64,000 nt of DNA from Planctomycetota bacterium (GTDB taxonomy: Bacteria > Planctomycetota > Planctomycetia > Pirellulales > Pirellulaceae). This document shows, piece after piece, positions 33,501-46,200 of the stretch; position 1 is the stretch's first letter, and each line of letters opens with the position of its first letter. The stretch is from NCBI GenBank assembly GCA_027622275.1, contig JAQBZB010000007.1:1-64000 (forward strand). The letters are read 5' to 3'. Under the pieces are notes generated by a model. It was not told the DNA's origin. It made no database searches and worked only from the letters and a program-made list of their open reading frames with translations. A program made the position numbers and the translations under genes.

Positions 33501-36500
33501 CTCGGCCACAATCGTGTCCGGGCCGGGCTGCGCCTCGCTGGGATCAAGGCCCGCGATGACGACGGTCAGCGGATTGTCGAGAATGGCGTTGTTGCGTGTG
33601 ACCGTACCGGTGCCCGCGGCCCCTTCGGCCAAACTGGCGGGCAGCGTCAGGCTGAGTGTGGCGGTATCGTTATCGAACACATTCATTACCGCACTGACGC
33701 CCGTATATCCCAACACGCTCGGCGTCACGACGATCGACTGCGTGCCGTCCGCGATCAAGTCATCGACGACGTACACGGCGGCTGTACCGGTGGACATGCC
33801 AGGGGGAATATTGACCACGATCGTTGTCGTTGGGGTTGGGAGCGCGGGCGTCGTGAACGATGCGTTGGGACGTCCTACGGCTGTGCCCGGATCGAACATG
33901 GTCAGTGTCACATTCACACCGCCAGCCGGCGCGGGAGTTTCCAGCGTGACGGTAACGGTCGTGGCCGGAGCGGGAAGCAAAGCGGAGTCGCTCTCGTTGA
34001 TGGACGTCGGTGCAAAGCTGACCGTGGCGTTCGCGGCAGGCGTACCCAGACTCGCGTTCTTGGCACCGACCAAATCGACGCGATTGCTGGTCGTCGTGTG
34101 AACGATGGCCAGCACGCCAAAGTCGACGACGCCGTTGATGGCGTTACGCATCTTGATGGCCACCTGATCTTCCGTGTCGGTGTCGAGGAAGTTGACCGCG
34201 ACATTGCCGACCGCCACGCCGCCGCTGTTGTTAAACTCGAACACCTTGGTGGTGCGGCCGATGATCGTGAACGTCATACCATCGGTCAATGAACTGCCGG
34301 GAGGCGCCACGAGCGTGATGCCGTGATCGACTCGCTCGTTCGTGTCGTACGTCGGATTGGGACCCTTGGTCAGCGAAGGTTCCAGGCTGAAGCCGATCGC
34401 GACATCGGCGGTCGTCGAACTCGCCAGTCCGGCAAAGTCATCCGCACGCCGGACTTCGACCTGATAGGGACCGATCAAAACCTCGGGCGAAACCGTGGGT
34501 CCGGCGGCCGGCTGCGGCCAGCCAAAAAATTCCGTTCCACCGGCCTGACCGCTAATGCCCATCTCGCCGCGCTCCGAGAAGCCGACGATGATGTCATCGA
34601 TATAGAAGCCTTCGAAGTTGTTATTCGTCGTGCGGACCGAGCGCGTGCCGCTGGTGAACTCGCCGAAGCCGGCGTTGATCGAACCTTCGGTCGGATCGTT
34701 CATTGTGCCGGCCGTGCTGAAATCGAAGCGCAGTCTGAGATTCGGCTGGCGGGCGTATTGGTCCAGGTCGAGCCGCACTTGCCGCCAGTTGTCGCTGTCG
34801 AACAATTCCTGCACTTGCTGATCGCCCTTGGAACTGCCGAAGCGCGCGCCTTCGTGGGCGGAATCGGTCCAAAACTGCGGCAACTCGGCGTCCCGTCCGA
34901 TTTGTGTGCTGCGGGTCGAGTTGTTCGTAGCGAGCAACTCCCACGTCAATCCATCGTTTTTGGAGATGTAGACGCGGGCGCTGTCGCGGAACGGGTTGCT
35001 CGAGTTCGCCAGCGAACCGCCGTGTTTTTCGGTCTCCAGGAAATAGTTGACGTACAGCGTCGGCTTGTCGGCGAAGGTATACGGTTCGAGGCTGAAGGAG
35101 TTGGTGGTCAAGCTTCCCAGCGCGCCGCCGGGGGCGTTGTAGTTATCGCCGATGTCGTTCGCGCCGTTGTTGGCGTTGGTGGTCAAGTCGCTCTGGAACT
35201 GGTTGGTCAACACGCCGTACTGGGCGTTGGATGCTTGATAGGGGAGATAGCGGTACTTGGTACCCGTGCTGTTGTACCGTTCGAGGCCGAAATAGAAGCT
35301 CGCGCCGCCTTCGCCTTCGTCGCTGCCGACGCCGTTGATCGCAAGGCCTTCGTCACCCGGCGTCCGGCTGTTGTCGAATAAAGCATTGATCCCGTGCCCC
35401 GGCTCGTCCCCCGGACCACGCCGGAAGGTCGGGTGCCAGAGGTTGAAGTCAATCGGCGAAAAGGCCAAGCCGGTAACGCCGCCAAGTCCGATGTTGATCG
35501 TGGTTCTATCGGCGATATCGTCGCCGTTGCTGTCGAAGATCGCTTGCGGCACGCCGGCGGTATTCAATGCATACAGGTCGCCTGTGGACGTCACGGCGAA
35601 CAGGAGCTGACTGTACCGTCCTGGGCTTTCATTGCCCGCCGCATCGAATTCGCTGACGTTCTGGGGGCCAATGGACAAACCTTGGAAGCTGGCACCGAGG
35701 AAGGGCGGCACGATGCGAGTCGCAACTCCAGTGTTCTCGTTGATCGATATAAACTCGCCGCCACTGGTGACGCCATACAATTGCCCTGATTCATAAGCCA
35801 GACCGGTGACAAATCCCGTCAGCGGGCCCAATGGATCGGTGCCGTTGTTGCCGATCGTTACGACTTGCCCGAACCCACCACCGGGCACGCCTATGGTGAA
35901 TGTGGTGCTCGACCGGACGGTCGTACCGGCATTTCCTGCCGTGACCGCGGCCGTCACCATCGAACCCGCAGTTCCGTGAGAGTTAATCAAATCGACAAGC
36001 GTCTGCAGGTTCTGGAATGTTCCGTTCGGGACGTTCGTGTTCAAGAAAACCGTGATCGTGCCCGAGGCTGGATTTGCAGCGACGGAATTGCCCGCACCAG
36101 TGAGCACGACATTAACAGTAATCCCGTTCCCTGCGACGCCCGGTGCTCGTGACTGAATTGTCACTGTGCCGTTTGTGGGGGTTGGATCGCTGATTATGCG
36201 GCGAGCTTCAGCGAAAGTGACGCCCGACGGTTGAATGTTGCCCTTGAAGCCAAACTGATTCGTCCGCGCGGCCGAACCCGCCGCGCCTTCCGCATTGCCG
36301 CGATATAGTTTTGAGTTGAATGATGCCGTCCCGCCCAAGTTAAATCCCGCTTCGCGCACGGAGTAAATCGCTTCGTACTGTGCGTCCAGGCCCGACGACC
36401 CCGTTCGGTCAAAGGTGACGGCGTCCACGTCATCGGTAAATGTCAACTCGTCGATCGTCGGAATCGGATTGTTGCCCGTTACCTGAAGCGTCCCTGTCGT

Positions 36501-39500
36501 TGGGTTAGTACTGCCGGGGACATTGTCGCTTCCAAACGCCGTCAGGGCGCCAACGCCGGGATCGATGTTGACCAACGTCCCTGCCAGATTGGGAATGTTG
36601 TTCTGCGTGGTGTTCGGGTTGGCATCTCGCCTCTGGTAACCGAAAAACGCGCCGTCAGAACGAATCACAATATCTTGGACCGTATCCGGCGAATTGCCGG
36701 GAGCCAGATCGTTTGTCACGCGCGTCACAGTACCGCCCTGGAACGGGTTGACCGTAAACAACGAATCGCCGTTGCTGGCACTCGCAAACAGCAGCACGTC
36801 GCCCAAATCGAAAGCGGTGACGTGGGCTGACAAGGAGATTTTGTCTGCGATGTCGACCAACGGCAGCGGGTTGTCCTGCGGGATCGCGGCGCCGTTGGAC
36901 GTGTAGCCCGTGAAGCCGATGTGATCCTCGACGACGCGGGTGATCGAGTTCACCGGCTCCAATCGGAACAACGGATCAAACGGCGTGAAATTCAGATACT
37001 GGTTGAGCGGATCGGGAAGTTGCGAGTTCGACGAAACGGCAATGCGATAATCGGACGCCGCGCCCTCGGGCAGATGCACCGGTCCGATGAAGGGATCATT
37101 CAGCCCCAGCGAACCGCGACGCAACTGCGTGGTGTCCGGAACGACGCCCGGACGCGGCTGATCGTCCTCGACATTCGATTCGCGGCCGATCAGCAGGAGA
37201 TTGCCCGCCGGGTCGAAGACGTACATGCTGCTGTCGGCACGGACCACACCGTCGGCGTAATCCAAGTCGAACACGGCGGCAATCGTCTTGCCGCCGTCAT
37301 TGATTCCGGCAATGGATTGAATCGAACCCGGTGCATGTTCGACGTCCAGCTGATAGAAGTCCCACTGATTCGGGTCGTTCAAGTTGCCGGCAATCGTGAT
37401 CGATGCGCGATCCATTTCCAACAGGTTGCCGATATTCTGCGGTGCTCCGAAGTTGCTGCCGCCGATTTCGGATGTTTCCCCGACGATCAAGGAGTGGGCG
37501 GGCAAACCGCGAGCGTCAAGCCCCGTCGTCGCATACCGGATGTCGGCGTAGCGGACGGTCGAGCCGGGGAACTCGTCCACCTGCTTCATGCGAATCTGTA
37601 ACTTATACGCACCGCTCGTCAGTCCGCCATCGAGGTTGGTAATCGCGTTATCCGGCAGCGGATTGCTGCGGACGCGAACGAAATAGGTTCCGCTGGCCCC
37701 CGTTCCCGGCAAGAGGAGCCGCATGCTCGGGTCGCGGAAGTTGGTCGTATAGAAATCGCCGATCAACAGCGGGTCGTCATGGGCGGTCTGAGCGATCGTA
37801 CCGGAGAGGTTCGAATTCGTGATCGAACGGGCCAGAACCGTGCCGGTGATGTTCACCAACTCGACGACCGCGTCCAGCGCGGGAGAAGTCTGATCGATAT
37901 CCAACCATACTTCCGTCCCCGGCGTCCCTTTGAAACTGTAGACGTCCAGGTCGGTCGTATCGTCAACGCTGATGAACCCATGTACTTCGAAGCCGAAGAC
38001 ACTGTTCTCGTCGCCGCTCTTTTCGTTCGGTGCCAGCGTGCCTAAGGGCTGGGCGACCGTGGGCGTCGGATTCGCATCGACGCCGTCGGTGAAGGCGCGC
38101 TCCGACTCGTCCGACACACGGACGTTGCGGTCGTTGCTGAACTTGTCGAAGAAAATGCCGCGCCAATCGCCCGGACCTGGCACATTGGCCACCGGGGCAC
38201 CCGTGAGGTCGTCTATTCCATTGGCATCGACATCGAGGCCGTCGTTATTTGTGTCGAGCAACACGCGGCCGCTGGGCGTGAATCCGGCACCCACCGAATC
38301 GTCGAACAGCGACGTGAGTACCACGGGATGTCCGACCGCCCCGATCACTTGGACCGTGCCGCCAACGCGATCATCGATTTCCAGCGGTGTTCCAGTCGCG
38401 GTGAATCCAGCCGACACGACTTGATCCTGCAGCTTGACGACCAGGCTCTCCGAGTCACTACTTTGCAGCCGCACGCCCGCGAAGGTGTGGAGGTTCTCGG
38501 CAATGACCTCACTCCGGAGGACGTGAACGATGTCCGTATCGTCCCAGGTGGATTCGATGGTCAGCTCCTCGCCCCGCACGGTCATCGCGTTGGGCGAGTT
38601 GTTTTCCAGCCGATTCAGCCGGACTAACGGACCGCTGTTGTCACCCAAGGTTTCGAAGGCCACGAGTGGCCCGGTCGAGCGGCCGTAATCTCGGACATTG
38701 CGGGACTGGAGAGAATTCGCATTGATATTGATCACACCACCCGCGTTGTCGCGAATGATGTTGTTGACGATGATCGGCTGGGCACCGCTGACGTGAATGG
38801 TCGAGTTCGAGTTGCCGCCGCGGCCATTGCGGTTGGACGACGCGCTCCCGCCCGCGTTCTCTTCCAACACGCTGTTCGTCAGTCGCAGCCGGGCTTGATG
38901 CACTTCGATCGCATTGAACTGGTCGAAACCGCCTTCGATCGGCACTTGTCCGCCCGCGAAGGCGATCAAGGCGTTGTCGATGCTGCCGCTGGAGACGTGG
39001 TTGAACATCAGACCGCCCCAATCACCGGGCGAACCGCTGCTGGCTCCATTGTCATTGGTGTCAAACGTACCGCTGCCGCCGAATCGATCATCGGCGACGG
39101 ACGTGAAGATGACTTCCCGTTGTTCCGTACCTTCAGCGATGAGATTCGACGCACCGCGTTCCATTTCAATCCGAGAGTTGCCCAACTTGACAACGACACC
39201 CGGATCGACGTGCAACCGGCCGCTGAGTCTGGCTGTCGTACCCAAGGGCCCGCCGGCGCTGCCTTTGATCAACAAGTTTTCGGTGATGACATGAACGATA
39301 TCGTTGTCGTCAAAGCGTGCCGAGACATCGAGCTTTTCCAAGGGGTTGCCGAATTGCGTCTCGATGCGGACAAACAGGCCGTTGATGCTGCTGCCAGCCA
39401 GGTAATTGCCGTAAATGTCCGGTCCCAGCCGGCCGCCGGCATCGTCGAAGCTGTTCGGGTTCGCCGACATCGAAGCGTCGGCGCTGTTGGTGATGGTGTT

Positions 39501-42500
39501 GAACGAGACCGTCGGACGCGCGACGATCATGTGAACGGGGGCAAACACTTCCTCGTTCGAGCCCACGAAGACCTTGCCGCCGCCATTATTCATGTCGGCG
39601 TGGTTCACGTAGTTCAGAAAGATGCCGTTCTGCTCGAGATCCGAATCGTCGCGGAAGACGACGCCGCCAAAGTCGCCCGGCTGTGGTAACGGCCCCACGC
39701 CATCACTGTTCCCGCCGACCGTGTCGTTGCGGAAAGATCGGAAGAAGACCTTGTTCTCTGGCGTACCGAGGATCTGGATGGCAGCGCCACGGCGATCGAC
39801 CAGCACCGAGGAAGTACCGGCATCGATACTTCCCTTGCGAAGCTTCAGCAACGTGCCGGCGTCAAACATCGCGGTCACGCCTTGGGGTACTTCGATCGAA
39901 TGGCCGTCGGCCAGCGGCAAGCCCCCGTTGGTGAGCCCGACCAAATAGGGCTGTGCGTCCAACAGCGTTTTGATGTTCCCGTCCAGTCCGGAGTTGCCCA
40001 CGACGCGAACAAGATTGGGAGCATTAATCAGCGCCGCGGAACCAGCCACGTCCAGATTGATGATCCCGGTCAGATTGACCACGATGCTGCCGGCACCACC
40101 GACTGTCGCATCGACGCTTACGTCAAGTTGAAGCGGCATCGGCGCGGTGCCGCCCGACGCGTTGATCGCTGCATCGTTGATCGCCTTGGCGATAGAAGTC
40201 GCGAGCGTCGATCCACTATCGGCAGATGTGAATGGCACCGGGACAATGTTCAGAGGATCCGACACGCCGGCTGAGTTTAAATCAAACTCGAACGTCAGCG
40301 GCGGATTCAGGCCGTCATCGATGATGAACTGGTCGCCATCGAGAACCGTGACGAAACCGTTGCGATTCGTCGGCACCATGATCCGATTCGCCGCCTGCTG
40401 CATGGCGAAGGAGATCGTGTCGTAAGGTCCGGTCGTGGGAACCCCGGTCGTTCCAGTCAGTTGTCCGTTGCCATCGACGATGTTCGCTCGTTGGTCGTTG
40501 GCTTTGTCGACGAAGATCGTGTTTTTACTGCTCTCGAACCAGAAGCTGTATTGGCCTCCGGGTTCGCCGTCCGCATCGCCGTCGAACAAGGTGCCGGGCT
40601 CATTCGTCGCAGCACCGTCAACGTCGGCCAGCGTCGACTTTGGCACTGGACTCAGTTTCAGCGACAAGTCGTATCCGCCATCCGTCCGCCCACCGAATCC
40701 GCTGTCCGCGATATTCGGGTCGTAGTTAACATTGCCCGTGCTGCTTACGCCGAGGAAGTAGGTTCCTTTTGCCAGATCGATTCCGATGAAGGAGTCGTTG
40801 CTGTAGTAGTTGTCGTTCTGCGCAATGACTTCGCGCGTGCCGTCGGGGTTTTGGCGGTACAGCCTCAGCGCGCTATCGAGATTGCTCGTGACCGTCCGCC
40901 GTTCCGCCACTGTCTCGGCGGTGAAGTATCCGGGCTCGGTCACGGCGAATTGATACAAATCGATATCGGTGCTGTCGGGCCGCGAGATGCGTTGCAGGTG
41001 GACGAGATCATAATCGCCCGGAAACACTTCGTTCGGTACGCCATTTCCCTGTACCGACGGGATATCGTACGAGTGTCCCAAACCGAGCGAGTGCCCGATT
41101 TCGTGGAACGCGACGCCGAAGAAGCCGCCTCCAAACACGTTGTTCGAAAGTGGATAATCCGCAAAATCGATAACCACAAGGCTAGGCCCGCCCAAACCCG
41201 CAACTCCGCCGGGCCCACTAATGGAGGTCGGATCGGCCGCCTTCAAATCGCCCTTCATGATGGCGGTGCCGCCGCCTTCGCGGAACTGCCGCCCGATATA
41301 CGAACCATAGAGTTCATAGATATCGCGGATAACTTGCTTTTCGGTCTCTGAAATAAAGTTGGGGAAACCACCGACCGAGGCTGGGAAGTTATAGCCGGTC
41401 ACCGGGATCCCGGTGGGCGGAGTTGGCCCCAAACCAAACGTCGGAACGTGCTGTTCCGGTTGGATGAGCCGATGCCCCGGTTCGTCTTCGCCGCCCGGAT
41501 ACCTCGGCATCAGGACCGTAGTTTGAGCCTGGATCGCCGAAGTGTGCTTAACACCCGCGATGCCAAGGTTGCCAAGCTGCGTGGCACCGCCAAACGTCGT
41601 ATCCGTGGGCTCGTTGTTGACGATTGCGTTGCTAACATCGATCTCCAAGAGATACGAACCGGTATCCCCCGCCATACCTGTCCCCGCGACTTCCACAAAG
41701 AACGTGCCGGCACCGACGGCAAGCGAGACGTTGTCCGGGCCGGGCAAGGTGGATATGCCCCCGACGACCGGCGTACCGGCGCTGTCGAGCAACCGAATAT
41801 TCGGATCGACACTACTTGCGCGGGGCGTCACATTGACTGTCAACGTGGCTCCCGCAGCAACGTCAATCTTATAAAGGTCGACGTCGGTTTGGTCGGTACT
41901 CAAGCCAACGCGGTCGCCAATGAAGCCAACGTACTCGAACCCGGTACTGGCAAACAAAGTCCCCACGTCGAGGACGGTCGTCGACAGGTCGTTCGACTCG
42001 TCGCTCGTGCCGACGTCCAATCGATACGTGCCGTCGGGAATCGCGGCGAAGGTCAAGGCGGCCGTATTGTCGACCGGATCGTAAGTAACTCGCGTCGGGA
42101 GCGTGATGGCGTCGTCGCCCAAAGCCGCACTCGCCGCGGTGTCGACCAGCCGATAGAACTTGGGATTGGTCGCATCCGCCGGATCGAGTTCATCATTGCT
42201 GAAGTAAACAATAATCTGATTGGTCGCTTGGCTCAGAGCGGCTTGACGGACCACGCTGATGCTGGTGTTCGTACCGGTCAAGCCAGAGGCACCGAGCGCC
42301 AAGACGGGCTCCTCGCCCGCGTACTGTCCTTGCAATTTGACCGTCCACGGCCCGACGGATACCAGGCCTGTGACAACGACGTCCCCAGGCTGAACATTGC
42401 TCAATTCATTCAGCCGGTCTTCAATGTCTTGCCGCACATCGACGCCCGTCGCATTGATCGGCAACGTCGTGCGACCTTCCAACTTGAGCGTGAACTGGCC

Positions 42501-43157
42501 GCCCGTGACCGTGCCGTTGAACTTCACGCTATGCGCGTTGCGACTAACTGGTTCTGGAACAACGGCGACCACTTGCGCCCCGCGCACCAGCCGGAACGAT
42601 TGAGAAAAATTGCCGACGACGCCAGCAACCGTGAACCGTTCATTACTTCGATTCGTGAGCGGCGAGAATCCGAGTCCGTTGACCAAGATCCGATAGGTGT
42701 CATCGGGAAACGCGACCGCGGGATTGGTCACGTTATGCGACGCCGAACTGGCCGGGCGCAGCACGATACTCTGAAGATTGGCGGTGTCGGTATCACCGGG
42801 GTCGTTCAGTCCGAGGAAGCCCAGCGAGACAGTGACATCATTCCCGTTGCCAAACGTGCCGTCACCACCGCTGCGTACGAGCCGAACACTACTGGCAATC
42901 GTCGACTCCTTCAAATCCGCGCCCCCTTTGAACAGCAAGTTGAACTCGCGTGGCGCGGTGTGCAGCGTGTCGCCTTCTTGCAACAACGCGGCCTCGTCCG
43001 GGCGGATCGCGATTAGCTCGGGGCCGGCGAGCAAACGACGATCCTCAAGCTGCTCGGTGAGTAGCTTTCGCGAGAATTGCCGCTGATGTTCGCGCTGGCG
43101 CTTCTTGTGTTGTTTGGCGAGACTCTTGACGATCGACCTTGGTCGTCGGAGCGTCAT
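12504..43157 (-). CDS. Complete 10,217-residue secreted cadherin-like/dockerin protein with matrixin-like domain (middle paralogue)
   Basis: One uninterrupted frame runs from ATG 43157 to TAG 12504-12506, giving a protein of about 1 MDa. AGGGA seven bases upstream supports the start. Domains by approximate residue: basic N-terminus with LEDRRLLA (37-44); Ig-like and A-type modules (45-400); PPC (403-503); zincin-like domain with HEIGHSLGLGH (685-695); PPC (715-830); B module; beta-helix (1083-1680); PPC (1700-1850); propeller-like and jelly-roll regions (2130-2860); Calx-beta domains surrounding a BNR propeller (3030-4330); second beta-helix (4330-4560); Ig-like; DYGDAPD/GEVED domain split by B and D modules (4815-6110); about 29 cadherin-like units joined by NDAP-type motifs (6110-9990), seven of them a perfect-period array; dockerin pair (10021-10090); acidic tail. 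The families suggest calcium-dependent adhesion or matrix building outside the cell. It lies 47 bases after the right gene, so co-transcription is likely. Confidence 0.97.
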   Translation of the reverse strand: MTLRRPRSIVKSLAKQHKKRQREHQRQFSRKLLTEQLEDRRLLAGPELIAIRPDEAALLQEGDTLHTAPREFNLLFKGGADLKESTIASSVRLVRSGGDGTFGNGNDVTVSLGFLGLNDPGDTDTANLQSIVLRPASSASHNVTNPAVAFPDDTYRILVNGLGFSPLTNRSNERFTVAGVVGNFSQSFRLVRGAQVVAVVPEPVSRNAHSVKFNGTVTGGQFTLKLEGRTTLPINATGVDVRQDIEDRLNELSNVQPGDVVVTGLVSVGPWTVKLQGQYAGEEPVLALGASGLTGTNTSISVVRQAALSQATNQIIVYFSNDELDPADATNPKFYRLVDTAASAALGDDAITLPTRVTYDPVDNTAALTFAAIPDGTYRLDVGTSDESNDLSTTVLDVGTLFASTGFEYVGFIGDRVGLSTDQTDVDLYKIDVAAGATLTVNVTPRASSVDPNIRLLDSAGTPVVGGISTLPGPDNVSLAVGAGTFFVEVAGTGMAGDTGSYLLEIDVSNAIVNNEPTDTTFGGATQLGNLGIAGVKHTSAIQAQTTVLMPRYPGGEDEPGHRLIQPEQHVPTFGLGPTPPTGIPVTGYNFPASVGGFPNFISETEKQVIRDIYELYGSYIGRQFREGGGTAIMKGDLKAADPTSISGPGGVAGLGGPSLVVIDFADYPLSNNVFGGGFFGVAFHEIGHSLGLGHSYDIPSVQGNGVPNEVFPGDYDLVHLQRISRPDSTDIDLYQFAVTEPGYFTAETVAERRTVTSNLDSALRLYRQNPDGTREVIAQNDNYYSNDSFIGIDLAKGTYFLGVSSTGNVNYDPNIADSGFGGRTDGGYDLSLKLSPVPKSTLADVDGAATNEPGTLFDGDADGEPGGQYSFWFESSKNTIFVDKANDQRANIVDGNGQLTGTTGVPTTGPYDTISFAMQQAANRIMVPTNRNGFVTVLDGDQFIIDDGLNPPLTFEFDLNSAGVSDPLNIVPVPFTSADSGSTLATSIAKAINDAAINASGGTAPMPLQLDVSVDATVGGAGSIVVNLTGIINLDVAGSAALINAPNLVRVVGNSGLDGNIKTLLDAQPYLVGLTNGGLPLADGHSIEVPQGVTAMFDAGTLLKLRKGSIDAGTSSVLVDRRGAAIQILGTPENKVFFRSFRNDTVGGNSDGVGPLPQPGDFGGVVFRDDSDLEQNGIFLNYVNHADMNNGGGKVFVGSNEEVFAPVHMIVARPTVSFNTITNSADASMSANPNSFDDAGGRLGPDIYGNYLAGSSINGLFVRIETQFGNPLEKLDVSARFDDNDIVHVITENLLIKGSAGGPLGTTARLSGRLHVDPGVVVKLGNSRIEMERGASNLIAEGTEQREVIFTSVADDRFGGSGTFDTNDNGASSGSPGDWGGLMFNHVSSGSIDNALIAFAGGQVPIEGGFDQFNAIEVHQARLRLTNSVLEENAGGSASSNRNGRGGNSNSTIHVSGAQPIIVNNIIRDNAGGVININANSLQSRNVRDYGRSTGPLVAFETLGDNSGPLVRLNRLENNSPNAMTVRGEELTIESTWDDTDIVHVLRSEVIAENLHTFAGVRLQSSDSESLVVKLQDQVVSAGFTATGTPLEIDDRVGGTVQVIGAVGHPVVLTSLFDDSVGAGFTPSGRVLLDTNNDGLDVDANGIDDLTGAPVANVPGPGDWRGIFFDKFSNDRNVRVSDESERAFTDGVDANPTPTVAQPLGTLAPNEKSGDENSVFGFEVHGFISVDDTTDLDVYSFKGTPGTEVWLDIDQTSPALDAVVELVNITGTVLARSITNSNLSGTIAQTAHDDPLLIGDFYTTNFRDPSMRLLLPGTGASGTYFVRVRSNPLPDNAITNLDGGLTSGAYKLQIRMKQVDEFPGSTVRYADIRYATTGLDARGLPAHSLIVGETSEIGGSNFGAPQNIGNLLEMDRASITIAGNLNDPNQWDFYQLDVEHAPGSIQSIAGINDGGKTIAAVFDLDYADGVVRADSSMYVFDPAGNLLLIGRESNVEDDQPRPGVVPDTTQLRRGSLGLNDPFIGPVHLPEGAASDYRIAVSSNSQLPDPLNQYLNFTPFDPLFRLEPVNSITRVVEDHIGFTGYTSNGAAIPQDNPLPLVDIADKISLSAHVTAFDLGDVLLFASASNGDSLFTVNPFQGGTVTRVTNDLAPGNSPDTVQDIVIRSDGAFFGYQRRDANPNTTQNNIPNLAGTLVNIDPGVGALTAFGSDNVPGSTNPTTGTLQVTGNNPIPTIDELTFTDDVDAVTFDRTGSSGLDAQYEAIYSVREAGFNLGGTASFNSKLYRGNAEGAAGSAARTNQFGFKGNIQPSGVTFAEARRIISDPTPTNGTVTIQSRAPGVAGNGITVNVVLTGAGNSVAANPASGTITVFLNTNVPNGTFQNLQTLVDLINSHGTAGSMVTAAVTAGNAGTTVRSSTTFTIGVPGGGFGQVVTIGNNGTDPLGPLTGFVTGLAYESGQLYGVTSGGEFISINENTGVATRIVPPFLGASFQGLSIGPQNVSEFDAAGNESPGRYSQLLFAVTSTGDLYALNTAGVPQAIFDSNGDDIADRTTINIGLGGVTGLAFSPIDFNLWHPTFRRGPGDEPGHGINALFDNSRTPGDEGLAINGVGSDEGEGGASFYFGLERYNSTGTKYRYLPYQASNAQYGVLTNQFQSDLTTNANNGANDIGDNYNAPGGALGSLTTNSFSLEPYTFADKPTLYVNYFLETEKHGGSLANSSNPFRDSARVYISKNDGLTWELLATNNSTRSTQIGRDAELPQFWTDSAHEGARFGSSKGDQQVQELFDSDNWRQVRLDLDQYARQPNLRLRFDFSTAGTMNDPTEGSINAGFGEFTSGTRSVRTTNNNFEGFYIDDIIVGFSERGEMGISGQAGGTEFFGWPQPAAGPTVSPEVLIGPYQVEVRRADDFAGLASSTTADVAIGFSLEPSLTKGPNPTYDTNERVDHGITLVAPPGSSLTDGMTFTIIGRTTKVFEFNNSGGVAVGNVAVNFLDTDTEDQVAIKMRNAINGVVDFGVLAIVHTTTSNRVDLVGAKNASLGTPAANATVSFAPTSINESDSALLPAPATTVTVTLETPAPAGGVNVTLTMFDPGTAVGRPNASFTTPALPTPTTTIVVNIPPGMSTGTAAVYVVDDLIADGTQSIVVTPSVLGYTGVSAVMNVFDNDTATLSLTLPASLAEGAAGTGTVTRNNAILDNPLTVVIAGLDPSEAQPGPDTIVAEIEPNNTNASAQNLETTAKWTLLQNDDIGDTTVNISTTIPHVSILATGNGTADFYSFNVDTAGSRGIFDIDHTGLINSRISVFDPTGAILTPAATGRNDDSLITFGASGSAVGTDSFLDITFPVVGRYVVQVDTNTGAAPPAGAAYTLNVSVGGHTFEQIYTQTVVIPAFAMSANFQLRGIQDYIADDDQTMVPVAAAAGGYASVTDRTMTVLDSAFTPTLSMVINGPTTINEVTSPTTTTATITTNRVLSTNQTVNLASHDASELSVPLTVVIPANTNTATFTISAVQDGVNEPLTLPQMDGVQSGLLVSAYLTGFPVANNAANPITVTDAVDVNISNRAFGSETQQESEMQVAVNPLDPNHIVAVTNDLNSNNIRVYRSFDNGVTWARSFITNADGRTASDRVGASVAFDNLGNLFVSYLAFLTGPPASTEILLATSTNGGLSFATFTSVSTSDAAGLKPGFVTADISPFSGRQNNVYVTYLQAESSDRVFVATTLDSGATIATNVRVDDQTVAGFRYDYPVVALGRTGQVYVAWQDDTTNAATSEATIFADVSTNGGASFGGDVLIATSTVWGPIPARYPLPAQVDRGILAAPTIDVDRTSGRIYIGYVNGPGGGSADTDIFVQHGTSLGAVFGNAPTLINDDGGMNSQFLPQIRVDQSTSNVYLAWYDARNDLANPNQTVQVYGAIRGSGVGFASLEANRLISDGVSDASASNGSRNTGVTPSGYNFGNYIGLVTNPSATAVDRARVVWADNSLTAADMDVFTDVFSPYRETLRLDIATPDPPVLSEDGANGPITTTVTLTSTSPNPVTVNLAFNNQIVTMPLTVGPFTGTTTVTITAVNNTTTTGIQSSQITATATSHDTARHVVSVVDDVEELNATMRVEVQASKVLGVDTISETGVTTALVTRSDNVATTTVQFGSSDMTEATIVGGNIVVAGPTGSRTVLGQNDGLVDGTQTSIITVASVAGRTYAPIYDVVDVTDNQSTPTPLLPSLTVAIMSSPINENAGLIAATGTVTLNAPRLDDLTVWLVSSDPSEAVLHDPVSGARGAQITVLIPAGMTVANFNIDAVDEFTNDASRTLQITAFASGYALNAGTLVVNPDTGASTIETYKRLGDSNRYRDQGLLLIENNTISNAAAWGIDVKPGQRDVNGNRTYPGGPINFAQLNNDDFAPGAVIQNNIVVASETGGGIHFQGETNAAPNASLPFGRIVNNTVFGGSAGTTQAAAGIVVDTNASPTIMNNVVAGFVDGVTITQSPTTVLGSNAFKDNTNDLTVDGMLGTLDAASFVLQPSDPLFVNPFRGNFYPADGARIVDSSLNVLQDRANYANFKTQIGLPQSPIFAPDRDVYGQLRVDSVEDPLGAGSSVFKDRGAVDKADDERPFAELLIPVDNDAEGLDLDPNVTVVYRTDIFLEEFSILLGDGAGPDAPFQGTGINARTVDILTEISDPNDPDATFSQRALRITRNREDLVEDTDYTLGYNASTGVLLLTPLSTLWEPNSVYVITLDNTLIQDNAGNFLRDNQPDGTTTFTIILGEFEFDYGDAPDASYGTIETSNGARHVLILDNPNTPGDEAVHFGDRVDGEDDGQPNAVASGDDRDQSIDLTGTPGLRTTSLAPFTLTFPAPANVLSGSSITLQDGSNSQTYLLSKAGRLFAVLDGAPPTIVEINETTGAVLPLTITAPQVITASGDVGLAYDGVSLWFVQDSPTLPAILYQIDPDMDMVVDFFPLTAGVQSYTGLTALAGDIYVIDQAGSDIFRLDKTNRTLVGLRDIDALNPTIIIAPGDQLDGGLGALVDPVGGNRLVATSLNRKVYLIDPANGQITSSFDATGSGLITGATTLDGAAVLDGQIYLGTSSGVHVFKRNGVGVFAYDRNFAMGTNFFALASDGGIDPSLPITVIDLTTFTGTTADDLAERLRAEIQADLDAGELAGFTPSVLANGELYLGGAPNLSVTTPTASGLAEAHQPSGSAVEYRLSLTPRFELEVGDNGLGFADVVDGQSFIFNPGSGPAVTFRFDRASRLATAAFAGAPTITVADPTAFPATATPAFNIRIDNEELTVTSIAAGGVFTVTRGVNGTNAADHLSPFALVHNSDLPQNTILFTASDTPGVVGSAIVAAIQRVLPEAAVSNSTTEVVLIEGTRTSATLNASLSSLTQRGPAANGTDFLVDGSTFTIDDGLNLAVTFEFDVAGSPPVTPGNIAIPLSLTSNIDQIGGAMVAAINPEILSTNLSALDPEYLRRGEPVGAAYLGSGLVQIASRPEHSVSVAGGTVGLGLIPRLPVRIQTVGAGLAVQVPRTQYIAVPAIGSAGITDGDRFTIDDSVNFPVTFEFNTVPGGGVTFGNRVINASDNVSRAVMNGRVLAAINAAIATGDLLPSILPQITASSEIQIQGADTSLVVAAAGVSGRGPVSDREQFTVADGQSGSIVFEFDYDFNFTATATPVDLVVGDTPNQIAAKLHDAIAAETGTNLAIGTIDPILANTLFAEAVVELGETLDTVTFVNGGGSGTAAKLAITASGVSGGVKDGQTFVVQRGGDMLTFEFDRNNELTDPSHIRVDLGNLAGVPVPGDISTIASTAIDVATAIETAVNSFVATVSARAFLDESGNAVVDLQGDDEDGISVGKIFVPTQADPGYLIPIEVVASPGGFVDAWIDFNGNGLFADEEKLVGDAVVGLASSRLSVRIPTTTVLSASLPAPDVTSLSAAIDAVTTTVPVVDATQFSALTLPFVVVINAEQMQVTAIALNDLTVTRAFNSTMAAAHLINAVVRTPIINTIPVANTSQFALYPVPFDIVVDAERMQVNTVGGTSLTVTRAVDGTTEAGHLNNAAVRVSDDTILVADGSQFASYSLPFDVRIGTEQLQVNAVSGNVLTVTRGVNGTTQAGHFSNSLVQVLANSSIPVAAGLNRLSIDPSALTSIVSFVPGNTYARFRVSSVGGLAPTGLGIGGEVEDYLVRVLPNVAPIIANLPSLADLTFNEDVDLDAAPGVDFRLDLEDVDVTNGAVLDPLFDDDDLHNGNEDILSYQVLSNSNPTLITVNLVGTDLLFDFHEHQNNNLGGVAAVVVEATDHAGLKTTATLTVSVTALNDAPLTTSTNSTFSLNEGFNDNSGTLAELSLGITTTVKIAVGVASTSVTVVSTASFPETVPFYIGMGTEQLRVTRVDGNALTVQRGVNGTMAAVHGLGSVVTTSPVAVSDVDEDELMNTTLAVGVNASTTALQVTDVSFFPPATPFDIRIGSEDLRVISRVGNNLIVAPRVNGTAHSAGAFVGLLTTGIALPNALQPVTTLTIADATQFPSLAPFNIEINGEQMTVTAIAPGTGVTADFTVKRAINAISGPHNIGDTVLNLSNGVLTSTLNSDLGDTIEFVTFPDISTLPNLPTFRVRIDGEDLIVLFVLPMTAPAGEVTLIRAANGTAGPAHAAGTLMELPGFTEMQVTISLPTDDGTVRLVPYGRAAAIDNASSFVTLQGTEADINATLATLTYVVPNTDFNQVNNPGDVVIDFEANDLGNTGVGGPLMSSDQLTVTVNPVNDRPEFTPGPDETIFEDDGPQVVAWATNIVPGPPIATATDEAGQTLMFIVGSPVVISGNLTFIATANPAIDSAGTLTYEAAPDAFGTATVTVQLMDDGLGTDKSLPVHTLTITVTGVNDAPDGMDATIPMLEDGTHTFAAGDFSFSDLVDAPASNSFLSVFISSLPAKGTLALSGIGVSLLAEIPVASLGLLTYQPALNEYGTGYASFDFQVRDNGGMFNGGIDTDPVANTITFDVTLVNDAPDGADLTIPMLEDGTYTFASADFGFSDLADAPVPNNFLSVVISSLPAKGTLALSGTAVLVNDEIPVASLGLLTYRPALNEYGTGYASFDFQVRDDGDILNGGIDVDPVANTFTFDVTLVNDAPDGADATIPMLEDGTYTFASGDFGYSDTADAPAPNNFLSVFISSLPAKGTLLFDNNQVFVNDEILAANLGLLTYQPALNEYGTGYASFDFQVRDNGDILNGGIDTDPVANTITFDVTLVNDAPDGTDTTIPLLEDSVHTFAAGNFGFSDVADAPAPNGFLSVKISSLPAKGTLALSGTPVLAGAEIPVANLGQLTYQPALNESGAGYASFDFQVRDNGGMLNGGINLDPVANTITFDVTLVNDAPDGADATIPLFEDATHVFVPGNFGFSDLADAPATNNFLSVVISSLPAKGTLALSGTPVLVNADILVADLSLLTYQPALNQYGTAYASFNFQVRDNGGMLNGGIDLDPVANTITFDVTLVNDAPNGANLTIPMLEDGTYTFASGDFGFSDAADAPAPNNFMSVVISSLPAKGTLALSGSAVSMNDEILFTDLGLLTYQPVLNEYGGSYASFNFQVRDDGDILNGGIDLDPIANTITFNVTLVNDAPDGANSTILMDEDATHTFTAGNFGFSDLADAPAPNGFRSVVISSLPAKGTLARSGTPVLIGAEILAANLGQLTYKPALNEYGTGYASFAFQVRDDGGMNNGGVDLDPTPNTITFDVTSLNDVPLVTLVNSQFTFFEGAVDGGGAVLPQALSGVSVSDVDEDETGGTGELFVTVTVKADPDLEIDNGTVTATASGSAIVTVGAPNQLGILGTEADVNATLATLAYVAPSAGFNSAINSELGNPSGNVYVLVNVDDLGNTGSDGAKSSESTITLTVVPVNDAPEFGLLLVSTSNIREGDYEAAGVVYPGAVVAGVQPGPAAATDEAGQVLNFILTPTNVMGNLSFTAGPSIEFNTGSGNYELSFQTAPDTNGSAVIEVVLMDDGCPAVPQAGEEDCTVTGGVDTSTVQRFTLTVDPVNDPPFVDVDPDLQDPTRNEDSGLVVISNWASTVLPGPATATDELTQALTAVVNISATTGGLTFAKPIAFDPATGDLSFETSQDSNGTATFSVTVTDSDVGGNQSTVVETFTLTITAVNDPPVPGVDKFLGAIDGVDEDGGLTNGQPAAGPVKTIPVATLLMNDVAGPANESNQTLTIVSVTNPTSGGTAVLSGTDVFYTPGKNFNGIDTFTYVVRDADSSNPNFIPRQTIGTVSIEVRAVNDAPVANNDPEPGLEAAYTTDEDSFLVVAGVGAIFNDTDVDSTLLEIQGAADTTGTLGQVAFLLVFPPVGGIKNGDFTYDPGTAFQQLAVFDPMNPVAYDPLNPAAGSNYAFDTFRYTIVDDMGLSSNVATVTVRINGVNDPPTAGPIPNALTTITENQQLTAIPFVGNDIDLDHVPTELIYDIVSPTGLGTIRKGNPNFGENPQTFYFDPGADFDDLQTGTPPETRVVKFTYTATDRHGAVSNLATVTITVNGQNDAPIANDVTVSTSANSAAVAPFDADDDDHDDDSSTLTYTVFNLPTLGNAIQYVTVGDAGAATPDNGFFKFDPGTSDFVALPAGQTTTVKFGYTATDRHVPSASGSATVTVTVPGVNEAPTVPLPTAPQQVTIQAMEDGPAVTGIFLGDDVDSDDTPATLIYSFIGQLPASSGTLVNNNNGTFRFSPGADFQNLPAGEQRVLTFRYRAQDRHLAFSQEATGTITVTGKNDTPVVAGLNLTTGENQPLTANFSGSDADTGAMLTYTANALQSANSLQGVTLTNNNNGTFTFNPGTAFDHLAQAATATVTFTYIANDGIVTNPPTNLSAPATVTITVNGANDTPTAQDVPVTTVVEDGPIVAAQFAGDDVDDDDDANSLSYTIISSPSAGNVVHSGGRNFSFDPGPDFQELALNETLLLTFEYEVRDLFGQVSAPPGTVSITVTGRNDVPVASNISGLVAFEDGSAITSDFVAQDVDSDETGSGITFTVVSPPTAGTLTPPTAAGDTSFSFAPGTAFQDLSDGQSRQVTFTYRAADTHAGLSAIKTVTITVNGANDAPVAQNISGPAAVEDGSPVNITLQASDIDSDETGSTLSYSLKTPPPVGFGSVSISNVLGNAVAVYNPGNDFQDLFVGETRQVTFMYAATDQHGAESNAAEVTIVVTGVNDAPVAQNRTLTGVNEDGPAQTGTFADTGVDSDLDSDESGAGLVYSILTPPAQGRVLPLSGTAGDVSFEFDPDGDFDDLKLGATRDVTFRYRVTDTHGGFGTATVTVTVVGANDRPTVSPVNVNANEDGVPVTRSFAGADVDSDDSQQTLTYQLPSPLPTTLVGTIIKDPANPRQFIYNPGANFQALSLGETGTTQVTYTATDSHNSISAAGTIVVSILGANDAPTATSRLFNVNEGGSLTESFGGDDVDSDDSPASLQFTLVNVPSASIGSVTNNGGGSFTFVPGSAFESLALNGQPGTTSFTYLARDRHGVASNVATVSITVDGVNDKPFVENRSISAVEDGGPVSGMFVGDDIDTDDSPNTIVFNVATPPSEGSASNAGGNSFTFNPGAGFQDLGVNETRSVTFTYTAIDGHGAVSNPATVTVTVAGVNDTPVANDDHAATLEGQVQTINVIGPDAGGQDTDPDGDALTIASHDPTSAKGATISLSASSILTYNPTTSATLNGLAAGQVMTDTFAYTVSDGRGGTSTAMVTVTVTGVNNAPTALDDNFSASADAALIVAPPGVIGLAGANDRDPDPGTTLTVSSMDAISLRGAVITSDGNGGFTYDPTGVQGFRLLRANETLDDTFTYIASDGSLTSNVATVTVTVNGVNDTPIVNPESYSTAEETTVQVSAFAGVLANDSDIENDPLTVNLVTSVANGILNLSNNGAFAYTPALNFNGNDTFVYRVSDGNSSAVATATIVVTGVNDAPVAVADQYSMNQGETLQVAALNGVLANDSDVDNPQSSLQALARSLPTNGGVTLFADGHFTYTPTPDFSGISTFTYQAVDPSGTRSALTTVQITVLAGGGGSSTWHNSQNRFDVNNDGFVTAVDALQIINDLNRDGSRILPTQPGGPPFLDVNNDGSVAPIDVLLVINEINRSTAGGEGEGLALAGGDESLVSDTITVLATTDVVDLIAPHAAARPGRLSSPLFKVESGRISPISGPSATANRFDALAAPARHLDSVRGEWNDLLTDLVSVQRRSSLVDDAFAAFDGDSVDLLDNVLDDLF
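12886..13097 (-). other. Type I dockerin pair, middle gene
   Basis: Two EF-hand-like calcium loops, FDVNNDGFVTAVDALQIIN and LDVNNDGSVAPIDVLLVIN, are separated by a Pro-rich linker (residues about 10021-10090). Each has the Asp-x-Asn-x-Asp-Gly pattern. Dockerins bind cohesins, but none is visible in this window. Planctomycete giant proteins often end this way. About 127 residues of acidic tail follow. Confidence 0.9.
14350..17995 (-). repeat. Array of about eleven diverged cadherin-like repeats, middle gene
   Basis: Units average about 110 residues and share EDGxPV, DVDSDD, FxFxPGxxFQxL, VTFTYxAxDxHG and VTVTVxGxNDAP-type blocks. Unlike the seven-copy array further upstream in the protein, lengths and sequences vary, so this array is older. 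The acidic DVDSDD and NDAP sites are the kind that bind calcium in cadherin-like and VCBS-like domains; binding here is inferred. Confidence 0.85.
20019..22580 (-). repeat. Seven tandem 366-base repeats (122-residue cadherin-like units)
   Basis: Within the middle gene, residues 6860-7713 are exactly seven copies of a 122-residue unit with no length change. Each starts NDAPDG or NDAPNG and contains SSLPAKGTL and YASF-FQVRD motifs. The first copy starts at the codon 22580-22578 and the next domain (NDVPLV) at 20018, so the period is exact. DNA is also similar between copies (for example GCCGGAAGCGAAGA-like stretches recur), which points to recent duplication. This is the cadherin-like beta-sandwich class expected outside the cell. 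Confidence 0.95.
23220..24260 (-). repeat. Four D modules scattered in one cadherin-like unit, middle gene
   Basis: D-type cores are seen in VPFYIGMGTEQLRVTRVDGN, TPFDIRIGSEDLRVISRVGN, APFNIEINGEQMTVTAIAP and PTFRVRIDGEDLIVLFVLP. They separate the opening of a cadherin-like unit (FSLNEGFNDNSGTLAEL), its middle (AVSDVDEDELMN) and its later strands (MQVTISLPTDDGTVRLV). The last two units are more diverged. Confidence 0.75.
24840..25400 (-). repeat. Three tandem D modules (61-62 aa) inside the GEVED domain, middle gene
   Basis: Each unit has xxFxxxxLPFxVxIxxExxQVxxxxxxxLTVTRxVxGTTxAxH. The shared DNA block GTCAC(C/G)GTC starts at 24892, 25075 and 25261, giving periods of 183 and 186 bases. The array interrupts GEVED between SVRIPTTTV and NRLSIDPS, which are contiguous in the right gene's version. 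Confidence 0.85.
25200..28720 (-). other. DYGDAPD/GEVED domain split by an insert, middle gene
   Basis: The first part reads FEFDYGDAPDASYGT and GARH, then GDDRDQSID at about 28700. The continuation DDEDGISVGKIFVP and GGFVDAWIDFNGNG appears only at about 25670. The region between holds a propeller-like stretch and B and D modules. The domain ends GIGGEVEDYLVRVL at about 24670. GEVED domains are common in bacterial secreted proteins and normally unbroken. Confidence 0.8.
27225..27445 (-). repeat. D module nested in a B module, middle gene
   Basis: A B module begins DGQSFIFNPGSGPAVTFRFD, is interrupted by a D module (core FNIRIDNEELTVTSIAAGG and VTRGVNGTNAADH), then resumes QNTILFTASDTPGVVGSAIV. 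The right gene has the same nesting at 54620-54840. Confidence 0.8.
29480..30140 (-). other. Second beta-helix region, middle gene
   Basis: LLLIENNTISNAAAWGIDVK, AVIQNNIVVASETGGGIHFQ, GRIVNNTVFGGSAGT and PTIMNNVVAGFVDGV are repeated NN-turn rungs of a short parallel beta-helix. The right gene has the equivalent at about 57300-58140 (VKIHSNTITQAKSVGIVAD, VSIVNNTIDSAGVVGIHI). Confidence 0.75.
30190..31180 (-). other. Calx-beta-like domains after the BNR region, middle gene
   Basis: After VFSPYRETLRLDIATPDPPV the Calx-beta pattern resumes: VLSEDGANGPITTTVTLTS, VGPFTGTTTVTITAVNN, and SSPINENAGLIAATGTVTLN with VLIPAGMTVANFNIDAVDE. The array ends where the second beta-helix begins (YRDQGLLLIENNTIS). 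Confidence 0.7.
31185..32500 (-). other. BNR/Asp-box propeller region, middle gene
   Basis: Residues about 3550-3990 hold repeated Asp-box-like motifs SFDNGVTW, STNGGLSF, TLDSGATI and STNGGASF, with YVAWQDD and YLAWYDARND strands, as in sialidase-like beta-propellers. It probably folds as a propeller. No sialidase catalytic set (Arg triad, Tyr/Glu) can be assigned by eye, so an enzyme role is not claimed. It lies between Calx-beta-like domains. Confidence 0.7.
32530..34040 (-). other. Calx-beta-like domains before the BNR region, middle gene
   Basis: Segments such as LSLTLPASLAEGAAGTGTVT and INGPTTINEVTSP-TTTATIT, with VVIPANTNTATFTISAVQD, show the Calx-beta pattern (SxxExxG, TVTRN, and acidic ends V.D...E.). 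These domains usually bind calcium and act in adhesion. A PPC-like domain (TTIPHVSILATGNGTADFYS) sits among them near 33380-33150. Confidence 0.7.
34560..35470 (-). other. NLWH motif and jelly-roll-like region, middle gene
   Basis: FNLWHPTFRRGPGDEPGHGI is followed by FYFGLERYN, KPTLYVNYFLETE, DGLTWELLATNN, LRLRFDFSTAG and GFYIDDIIVGFSERGEM. The same blocks are in the left gene (about 290-1110) and right gene (about 59450-60620). The strand pattern resembles a lectin or MAM-like jelly roll; ligand unknown. Confidence 0.65.
38100..39920 (-). other. Parallel beta-helix region, middle gene
   Basis: Residues about 1083-1680 contain repeated short strands and Asn/Gly turns: AMFDAGTLLKLRKGSI, ADMNNGGGKVFVGS, GLFVRIETQFG, DWGGLMFNHVSSGSIDNALI and IEVHQARLRLTNSVLEEN. 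This is the pattern of right-handed beta-helices of pectate-lyase or surface-protein type. No catalytic site is evident. Confidence 0.75.
41010..41510 (-). other. Matrixin-like zincin domain of the middle gene (Met-turn Met replaced)
   Basis: The domain runs from YPGGEDEPGHR to the start of the PPC at RPDSTDIDLYQF. It contains HEIGHSLGLGH (residues 685-695), a complete HExxHxxGxxH zinc site with catalytic Glu686. In matrixins a Met follows the third His by eight residues (for example HSTDIGALM in MMP-1). Here the same position, in HSYDIPSVQ, is Gln703. The family is a secreted metallopeptidase. Whether this copy cleaves protein is uncertain, since some Met-turn substitutions in metzincins are tolerated. 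Confidence 0.75.
43026..43157 (-). other. Basic N-terminus with LEPR-XLL-like export motif, middle gene
   Basis: Residues 1-44 hold many Arg, Lys and Gln residues and end in LEDRRLLA (37-44), directly followed by an Ig-like domain beginning GPELIAIRPDEAALLQEGD. No classical hydrophobic signal segment is present. The motif marks the protein as a member of the planctomycete LEPR-XLL exported group. Confidence 0.85.
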
Positions 43158-43204: not shown

Positions 43205-46200
43205 CTAGCGGTCGCCTCTCAGTAGATCTTGTTCCAATAAGTCCGTCAGGGCTGCGTCGGCTAACTGACCACGGCCGGGCAGCTCGTCGTCGCTGGCGTG
43301 ATCCCAGGCGAGATCGATGAGTACGTCGTCCAACTCCGCACCCCCGCGATAGGCCTCTTCTCGCGACGAGTGAATCTCATCACGGTATCGATCTCGTATA
43401 CTTTCGACAAGCGAATCCGCGGCAAATCGGTTGGTTACCGACCAGGGTGCGACTAGCTCGTCATGCAGGGCGGGGGGCATCTCGCTCGCCGCCGAGTAAC
43501 GTGATTGCCGATAGCCGGGCGTAAACTCGGAAACCAACATCGCCGCGGCTCCCGCAGCACCAGTGAACCCCAGCACATCGGCTTGAGTTCCGATCGATTC
43601 GCCCTCGGGCTGATTGGCTCCCGCGTTGTTCAAAAAGTTGATGACCAGCAAGGCATCGATCGGTGTGCTCTGGCCGTCGCCGTTGGTGTCGTAATAAGGA
43701 GGTGGCGAGTTGCCGGAGGTTGGCACCGGCAGCGGACCGATTCCCTGCGTATTAATCCGGTTGATGACCAGCAAGGCATCAATCGCCGAGACAAATCCGT
43801 CCCCGCTCACGTCGAGCGCACCATCGGCTCCGTTCGCCGCTTGATCGGCGGGGTTCTGCCAAGGCTGGAACGGGACCACCGTCACGGTGACAGTCGCCGG
43901 CGCGGAAACGCCGCCAATGTTGTCATTGACCGTATACCGGAAGGTATCGGTGCCCGAGAACGCAAGGTTCGGAGTATAGGTAATAACGCCCGCCTGGCTG
44001 ACCGATACCGAGCCATTGGCCGGTTGCTGGGCAATCGCCACGCTGGAAGTCACAATCGAGCCATCCGAGTCGGTATCGTTTGCCAGAACCGGGATCGCCA
44101 CCGCAGTTCCTTGATTCGTCGTCGCCGCATCGGCGTTGGCGATTGGCGGTTGGTTGACGGTGACTGTGACGGTTGCCGGCTGGGAAGTCGCGCCTTGCAC
44201 GTCGCTCACGGTATATGTAAACGCGGTCTGACCGCGGAAGCCGGCGTTGGCCGTAAACGTAATCGTGCCGTTCGCGTTCGCGACAACGCTACCGCCCGAC
44301 GCCGCCGACACGATCGCCAGACTGGCTGGATTGATCACACTGTCCTTGTCGGAATCATTGCTCAACACGGGAAGAACCGTGGGACTCGTTCCCGGAACCG
44401 TGTAGCTGTCGTTAACAACCGTCGGGGCATCATTCACCGCCAAGACAATGAACCGGAACGTATCCTGGACAAATTCACCGCTCACATCGGAGGCCTCGAT
44501 CGTGATCAGCGTCTCGCCGGAAGCATCCGCGACCGGTGTGATTGACAGTGCCGTGTTATTGACGGCGGCGGAAGCGACCAGCGGATTCGAGTTGTCCACG
44601 ACGCGGATCGTGAGCCGATCGTTGTTCGACAGCACATCCGGATCGTTGAACACTTGCGGGAACAATTCGACGAGGGTCACGGGAGCGTCTTCGTTGACCG
44701 TAATGTCTGCAACAGGATTTGCCAGAACTGGCGGATCGTTGACCGGTGTCACGGTGATCGGCACTGCTTGGAAAACCGTTCGCACACCCGGCGAACCGGT
44801 ATTTCCGAGGTCATCGACGGTGACCACGAGCTGGTCTTGACCATGGAAGTTCGCCTTGCCGCGATAGGTCAGCCCGTTCGGCAGCATCTGCGAGTTTAAG
44901 CTGGCCAAGGTCGCGTTGATCTGGGCCAAGGGCGCCAACACACCAACGGTGCCCGATCCGTTACCGGTCACCTGGCTGGTGAGCACACCGCCGGGAATAT
45001 TCGTGTTCACGTTCAACGTGCCGTTGGTCGCGCGGAACTCGATTTGAACCTGACCGGTACCCTCCGCGGCGTCGATATCGGCGGCGACGAGCCCGCCGAT
45101 CGGCTGCGACACGTCCTCGGCCACCACTTGAGGTCCAGGGACGGTCAACGTCGGCGCGTCGTTCACGGCGCTGATCGAGATCGTAAACTTCTTCGTCGTC
45201 GAGTTGGTGTTCGGTGCCACGTTGGAACCGCTGTCCTGAGCATCGACCGTCACCACCGCGACACCGTTCTTGTTGGCTGCGGGTGTGTACGTCAGCGTCC
45301 CGTTCGCCGAGACGGCTGGCTGGGCAACGAACAGGCTGTTGTTGTTATTGGTCGTCACAAAGCTGACAGACTGGCCAGCTTCGTCGTTGGCGCTGACCGG
45401 CCCCGGCCGGATGCTCGATGCAAAGCCAAACACGGTCTGACCGATCGCGTCCTCGGTGATCTGCTGATTCGCGCCGAGTGTGAACTCGGGTGGATCGTTG
45501 ACGGATGCCACCGAGATGATCAATGTGTGGAGATCCGATTCGTTGTCGTGGGGATCTGTACCCGAGCCCGTGTCGCGCAACCGAACGGTCACGGTCGCGG
45601 TTCCCCATTTGTTCGGCGACGTCTGGAAGATGAGGTCGCCGGTCAACGGATCGACCAGCGGTGCCGTCGTGAACGTCAAACCGCCGGTAAAGCCGATCGT
45701 ATTGGCGATAAACGTCAACGCTTGCGAGTTTTCATCGGTCGCTCCCGCCGGTCCCGGACGGACGTTCGTCGCCCAATCCACGACTCGCACGAGTCCCGCG
45801 TCCTCATTCGCCAAGACATTGCCAGTACTATCAACCGCTCCCGCAGCAGGTGAAGATGCGATTCCGAACGCGAACAATCCGTGGCCGCTGAGCAAGACGA
45901 TATTGCCATTCGCCGCATTCAACACCGCGTTGACGCCGTAACCGGCACCGTTGATGGCTGAGACGAGCGCCGTCGCGACCGCCGATGCGTCCGAAGCCGA
46001 TGTAAAAGCAACGGCGGTGTTGCTGCTGGTGACACTGCCGTTACTGTCAAACTCGAACGTCCGCGCGGACGTTCCGAGGGCGCTGTGGATCGTCACCGTC
46101 GCCCCATCCGACAACAGATTGCCAGCAGGCAGTGTGATGCTGTTTGTCGTCGCGCTAACGTTAGCGGGCAGATACCCCGGCACGGTGAACTCGGGGGCAT

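Follow-up and report, generated by a model that had tools for sequence, protein, structure and literature searches.

A giant planctomycete gene encodes a matrixin-type metzincin domain that keeps the zinc-site motif and has glutamine in place of the Met-turn methionine. Glutamine recurs at this position in relatives with the motif, and the domain, read from its sequence, fits a natural departure from the Met rule better than an enzyme in decay. The Met-turn methionine has been called absolutely conserved (PMC1266349) and described as present in all identified metzincins (PMC3427221), so recurrent natural glutamine would be new variation. What the methionine does is described as not yet fully understood (PMC1266349). 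Repeated exchange of Met and Gln at a site regarded as invariant is of more interest than the pattern proposed in the initial annotation of this DNA, in which two paralogues decayed in complementary ways.

The giant gene array

The window, the whole 64,000-nt stretch of DNA analysed, carries three giant open frames on its minus strand. The following features were located.

1..12174 (-), left giant gene, open at its 3′ end and running off the contig; 4,058 aa visible
7864..8445 (-), residues 1244-1437 of the left gene; metzincin-like domain that has lost its zinc site
8014..8016 (-), Met1387 (ATG) of the left gene; Met-turn methionine kept
8038..8070 (-), QMIGTALGLGR, residues 1369-1379 of the left gene; what is left of the zinc motif
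12504..43157 (-), middle giant gene, 10,217 aa (open reading frame list, Pfam scan)
40740..40964 (-), PPC domain directly C-terminal to the middle metzincin-like domain, residues 732-806
40941..41477 (-), residues 561-739 of the middle gene; metzincin-like domain (profile and predicted fold)
41049..41051 (-), Gln703 (CAG) of the middle gene, at the site of the Met-turn methionine
41073..41105 (-), HEIGHSLGLGH, residues 685-695 of the middle gene; contains the three zinc ligands and the catalytic Glu
43208..64000 (-), right giant gene, 43208-69379 of the contig; frame of 8,724 aa

The middle protein comprises a planctomycete export signature, a PPC domain, the metzincin-like domain, the second PPC domain, a weak match to GEVED, numerous cadherin-like repeats and a type I dockerin near the C terminus, in a Pfam scan that leaves out residues 5001-5219. 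The right gene encodes a third copy of the metzincin-like domain, also zinc-less, just past the window edge (contig 65366-66328), and its C-terminal part has a similar repeat set and a dockerin domain.

The source contig stops inside the third giant gene of the array. Genome G002 has four giant frames in tandem on one strand (C183 59018-177736, L271-L277) of 8,591, 11,105, 10,674 and 8,985 aa. They hold orthologues of the right, middle and left genes, that of the left gene being the 10,674-aa frame, and a fourth copy that has lost the zinc site and has Gln. The middle orthologue alone retains a zinc site in this four-gene array. In both G000 and G002, the genes next upstream of the giant array have similar sizes and follow a similar order.

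Turn residues of the two paralogues

Gln703 lies eight residues after the third histidine of HEIGHSLGLGH. In the left gene Met1387 is at the same distance (+8) after QMIGTALGLGR, and Met1386 is at +7. BLASTP pairs the two domains at 42% identity, with no gap from motif to turn, so Gln703 faces Met1387. The initial annotation had described a zinc site with Gln at the Met-turn position in the middle gene, a lost zinc site with Met1387 in the left gene, and the full signature in neither, and these observations stand. The source genome encodes six copies, and none has both features: the middle gene and C150 have a zinc site and Gln, C354 has a zinc site and Leu, the left and right genes have no zinc site and Met, and C84 has no zinc site and Thr. 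The annotation had also allowed that a different methionine might form the turn. There is no Met in residues 696-830 of the middle protein, so no nearby methionine substitutes for it.

Relation to matrixins

A profile built from 67 family members matches MMP-12 (E 2.2e-8), and its turn column falls on the Met-turn methionine of MMP-12. AlphaFold2 models of the middle and left domains have mean pLDDT values of 76.4 and 74.5, and matrix metalloproteinases are the top Foldseek matches of both. All 42 matches of the middle domain at E up to 0.001 are titled MMPs, and the best match of the left domain is MMP-1 (E 5e-7). The middle model aligns with MMP-9, MMP-12 and MMP-7 at a VIA-align Z of 14.4, with rmsd 2.5-2.7 over 131-135 residues. 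The middle domain scores 21.8 bits against PF00413 in a 1000-aa query. The genome search gives it 23.8 bits, or 24.4 when neighbouring matches in the frame are added, and the cut-off is 24 throughout. The score slightly under the cut-off for the domain by itself weighs somewhat against an active metzincin. Both domains are matrixin-like by profile and predicted fold.

The family resembles matrixins (MMPs; PF00413, Peptidase_M10) in its predicted fold (Z about 14), the HExxHxxGxxH motif, the turn at +8 in the middle gene and the C-terminal helix. Unlike matrixins, many family copies replace the Met-turn methionine by Gln or Leu, the turn of many relatives lies two residues further on, and the domain is set in very long frames. 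Residues 1-760 of the middle protein contain no Cys and therefore no cysteine switch. The cysteine-switch prodomain is not universal among bacterial matrixins.

Two further conserved features were observed. Zinc-intact and zinc-lost copies share a conserved GHRxIxxExH segment ahead of the first strand (residues 561-570 of the middle protein, window 41448-41477), with Arg563 kept in 96/96 and 35/36 ungapped rows, respectively; the model has low confidence in this segment. Glu627, Asp717, Asp731 and Asp733 (middle numbering) are retained in almost every copy, zinc-lost copies included, which argues for a role in the fold or in another site, one that might perhaps bind calcium.

Turn residues among homologues

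Sixty genomes were searched, with matches in 37, and 85 domains were extracted from 36 genomes. The weakest matches, among them the sole match of G021, were not included. A scan of the GTDB contig set used patterns that favour an intact zinc site; 80 of 165 relatives were kept, and these were left out of zinc-loss rates and of the comparison between intact and lost copies. They are planctomycetes by title except two titled 'bacterium' (L155, L173), and several are binned as Kuenenia, a planctomycete name. After removal of ten duplicates and three short frame-shifted fragments, the final set holds 155 distinct domains; L050 and L052 have no domain. Six more zinc-intact Met copies (L248, L250-L254) stand outside the tallies. 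Three of 70 new loci were unusable for the structure alignment, and 65 of the other 67 were used. The turn residue was assigned by rule as the residue 8 after the third histidine in the short form, 10 in the longer form and 9 in a few. The domain of L076, L080 and L091 (G023:C2, G028:C11, G050:C437) is split across two frames, by frameshift or sequencing error.

HExxHxxxxxH is present in 106 of the 155 copies, and the turn residue of these is Met in 69, Gln in 30, Leu in 6 and Asn in 1. Two copies with HExxH and another third residue both have Met. The 47 zinc-lost copies have Met (20), Gln (14), Thr (3), Ser, Leu and Val (2 each), and Lys, Phe, Ala and Asp (1 each). The initial annotation had considered that homologues might generally have Gln here; this holds in part, with 28% Gln and 65% Met among intact copies.

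Matrixins from outside the family were taken from the same genomes as controls. They came from 30 loci, minus five family members and L119, L124 and L127, and from 40 further stretches, three of which lack the motif; L234 repeats L120 and was counted once. Turn residues, read by eye, are Met in 50, Leu in 8 and Gln in none of 58. The difference from the family in Gln (30 of 106 intact copies) gives p = 7.5e-7 when rows are treated as independent, which they are not.

The 30 Gln codons of zinc-intact copies are 16 CAG and 14 CAA, and Gln-turn copies also occur on isolate chromosomes (L137, CP036432; L141, CP036526). A sequencing or assembly artefact was rejected on the use of both codons, the orthologues in several genomes and the isolate chromosomes. 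Compensation by a methionine elsewhere was likewise rejected: the sole column enriched for Met in Gln copies at p < 0.05 is 683 (11/30 against 11/69 in Met copies, p = 0.03 uncorrected).

Other columns bear on whether the Gln turn is no neutral swap but marks some active copies as changed in specificity or metal. Column 670 is Trp in 5/30 Gln copies and 49/69 Met copies, and column 626 is Arg in 10/30 and 1/69, as such a change would lead one to expect. These differences are uncorrected for kinship, however, and near-identical Met and Gln domains differ little elsewhere, which makes this the least probable of the readings considered here.

The catalytic glutamate is present in all 106 three-His copies. 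The intact class is defined in part by this residue; the lack of three-His copies without it (0/155), however, does not follow from the definition; 36 of 155 copies have neither any of the three histidines nor the glutamate. The intact class, Gln copies included, therefore looks selected for catalysis, and by their motifs the Gln-turn copies keep the complete catalytic set. Among 36 genomes, 28 have a zinc-intact copy and 19 have a zinc-intact Met copy, leaving nine of the 28 whose zinc-intact copies all lack Met. The remaining eight have zinc-lost copies alone. Those eight genomes, the many zinc-less copies that persist under selection, and the setting in giant, repeat-rich proteins that also have PPC, cadherin-like and dockerin domains would fit a family of non-catalytic binding modules, stabilised by zinc in the intact copies, in which the turn drifts free of catalytic constraint. 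A structural zinc needs no general base, yet no copy has the histidines without the glutamate, and we regard this reading as rather unlikely.

Ancestry and selection

A tree was built without the motif and turn columns; 46 of its 152 inner branches are well supported. The minimum number of changes is 13 for the zinc state and, for Gln against other residues, 22 over all rows and 14 over intact rows, where 100 label shuffles averaged 26 changes and never fell below 22. As many branches are weakly supported, the count of independent Gln events is valid for the best tree; supported branches alone give six independent Gln/other pairs among intact rows. In Stieleria and relatives, Gln in L137 faces Met in L139 and L140 in near-identical domains (dN 0.014 and 0.032).

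In two-state models, one-way zinc loss beats one-way gain (49.9 against 60.2, a margin of about 10 log units), and it also does so in rows of the 60-genome search only (39.5 against 46.4). Two-way Met/Gln exchange fits better than one-way Met to Gln by 1.3-1.4 log units, which is suggestive only. A zinc site (posterior 1.0) and Met (0.95-1.0) are reconstructed for the common ancestor of the middle and left copies; with unequal rates the turn is assigned the state 'other' at the root, a result judged unstable and not relied on.

The middle clade (G000, G001, G002, G018) has a zinc site and Gln, and the left clade (G000, G002, G018) is zinc-lost with Met throughout. The exception in the middle clade is L041 (G001:C978:2996-4144), which groups among its rows (support 87-91) and has Met but no longer a zinc site. 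By sequence, L041 is a closer example of the pattern in the initial annotation than the middle/left pair.

Values of dN/dS were estimated by the Nei-Gojobori method and can be relied on for their order of magnitude only, since several pairs are saturated, or almost so, at synonymous sites. They are 0.128 for the middle pair L010/L011, 0.032 for the left pair L093/L045, 0.037 for the right pair L096/L047 and 0.083-0.089 for C84; two middle pairs gave no finite value. Middle orthologues thus evolve somewhat faster (0.13) than zinc-lost copies. Every finite value is far below 1, so no measured copy looks abandoned. The left and right zinc-lost copies are under strong purifying selection.

These results bear on the proposal that, after duplication, the middle gene lost Met and the left gene lost the zinc site, both heading to inactivity. 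An ancestor with both features was very probably present, as the initial annotation supposed, and each of the two changes took place in a lineage of its own. The source genome has no copy with both features, and L010/L011 has the highest finite dN/dS. Gln as a loss complementary to zinc loss did not hold up: it is kept in middle orthologues of four genomes with zinc site and glutamate intact, and its frequency is the same in intact and lost copies (11/37 and 14/47, Fisher p = 1.0; same genomes, set unbiased by pattern). An association of Gln with zinc loss was rejected on these counts, and tree-based pairs were too few to decide. Together with the selection on the left and right copies, this makes joint decay unlikely. 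The word appears less likely to apply to the middle gene, and for the left gene, with a domain dN/dS of about 0.03, it would mislead.

Proposed roles and known systems

Taken as a whole, the data are probably best explained by an active middle metzincin with a Gln turn, an interchangeable turn residue, and separate zinc losses that led to conserved pseudoproteases. The middle gene would encode a giant exported protein whose N-terminal matrixin-type domain, with Gln703 replacing the Met-turn methionine, most likely binds zinc and cleaves peptides. The turn residue of the family appears interchangeable between Met and Gln, and sometimes Leu. The Gln side chain has no branch and is about as long as that of Met, and it could pack beneath the three zinc-binding histidines without destroying the site. 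Zinc loss would be a separate, apparently one-way process that made the left, right and other copies pseudoproteases; these would retain the fold, probably to bind or to position the following PPC domain. As the sole zinc site left in the four-gene array, the middle protease may process itself or neighbouring array proteins. A fuller version, in which the family consists of active metzincins exchanging Met and Gln in both directions and the lone Gln-turn protease processes or works with the conserved pseudoprotease paralogues of its array, is a tentative proposal.

Engineered mutants also keep the zinc site with Met replaced. In MMP-2, Leu or Ser had a mild effect and was tolerated; in protease C, Leu, Ala or Ile gave weaker yet stable enzymes, and His, Ser or Asn gave enzymes too unstable to isolate (PMC1266349). 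The instability of polar replacements in protease C would count against an active Gln turn, though the replacements discussed in that paper's Discussion do not include Gln (PMC1266349). Unlike these laboratory-made changes, the replacement in the family is natural and recurrent. Because it occurs with zinc ligands and glutamate kept, matched pairs such as L137/L139 (dN 0.014) offer material for testing the function of the methionine.

The ADAM pseudopeptidases (for example ADAM2, ADAM11, ADAM22 and ADAM23) have many substitutions of zinc ligands and general base, and the Met-turn is typically conserved (PMC11266112). The left gene resembles them in predicted state, with ligands and base replaced and Met-turn and fold kept, and is not an ADAM. 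ADAMs belong to another metzincin family, whereas here the proteins are bacterial giants and zinc-less copies often have Gln or another residue at the turn. Zinc loss in these giant bacterial proteins appears to give conserved pseudoproteases, not dead remnants.

At the level of titles and abstract openings, the literature searched yielded no description of natural Gln or a missing Met at the Met-turn, and none of planctomycete matrixins, giant proteins or pseudoenzymes with such a pattern. Two giant frames carry an upstream second matrixin domain with a zinc site and Met, L111 (G018:C188:37692-37994) and L230 (G015:C2:790358-790786). The L111 frame also carries the zinc-lost family copy L071, and the L230 frame carries the Gln-turn copy L065.
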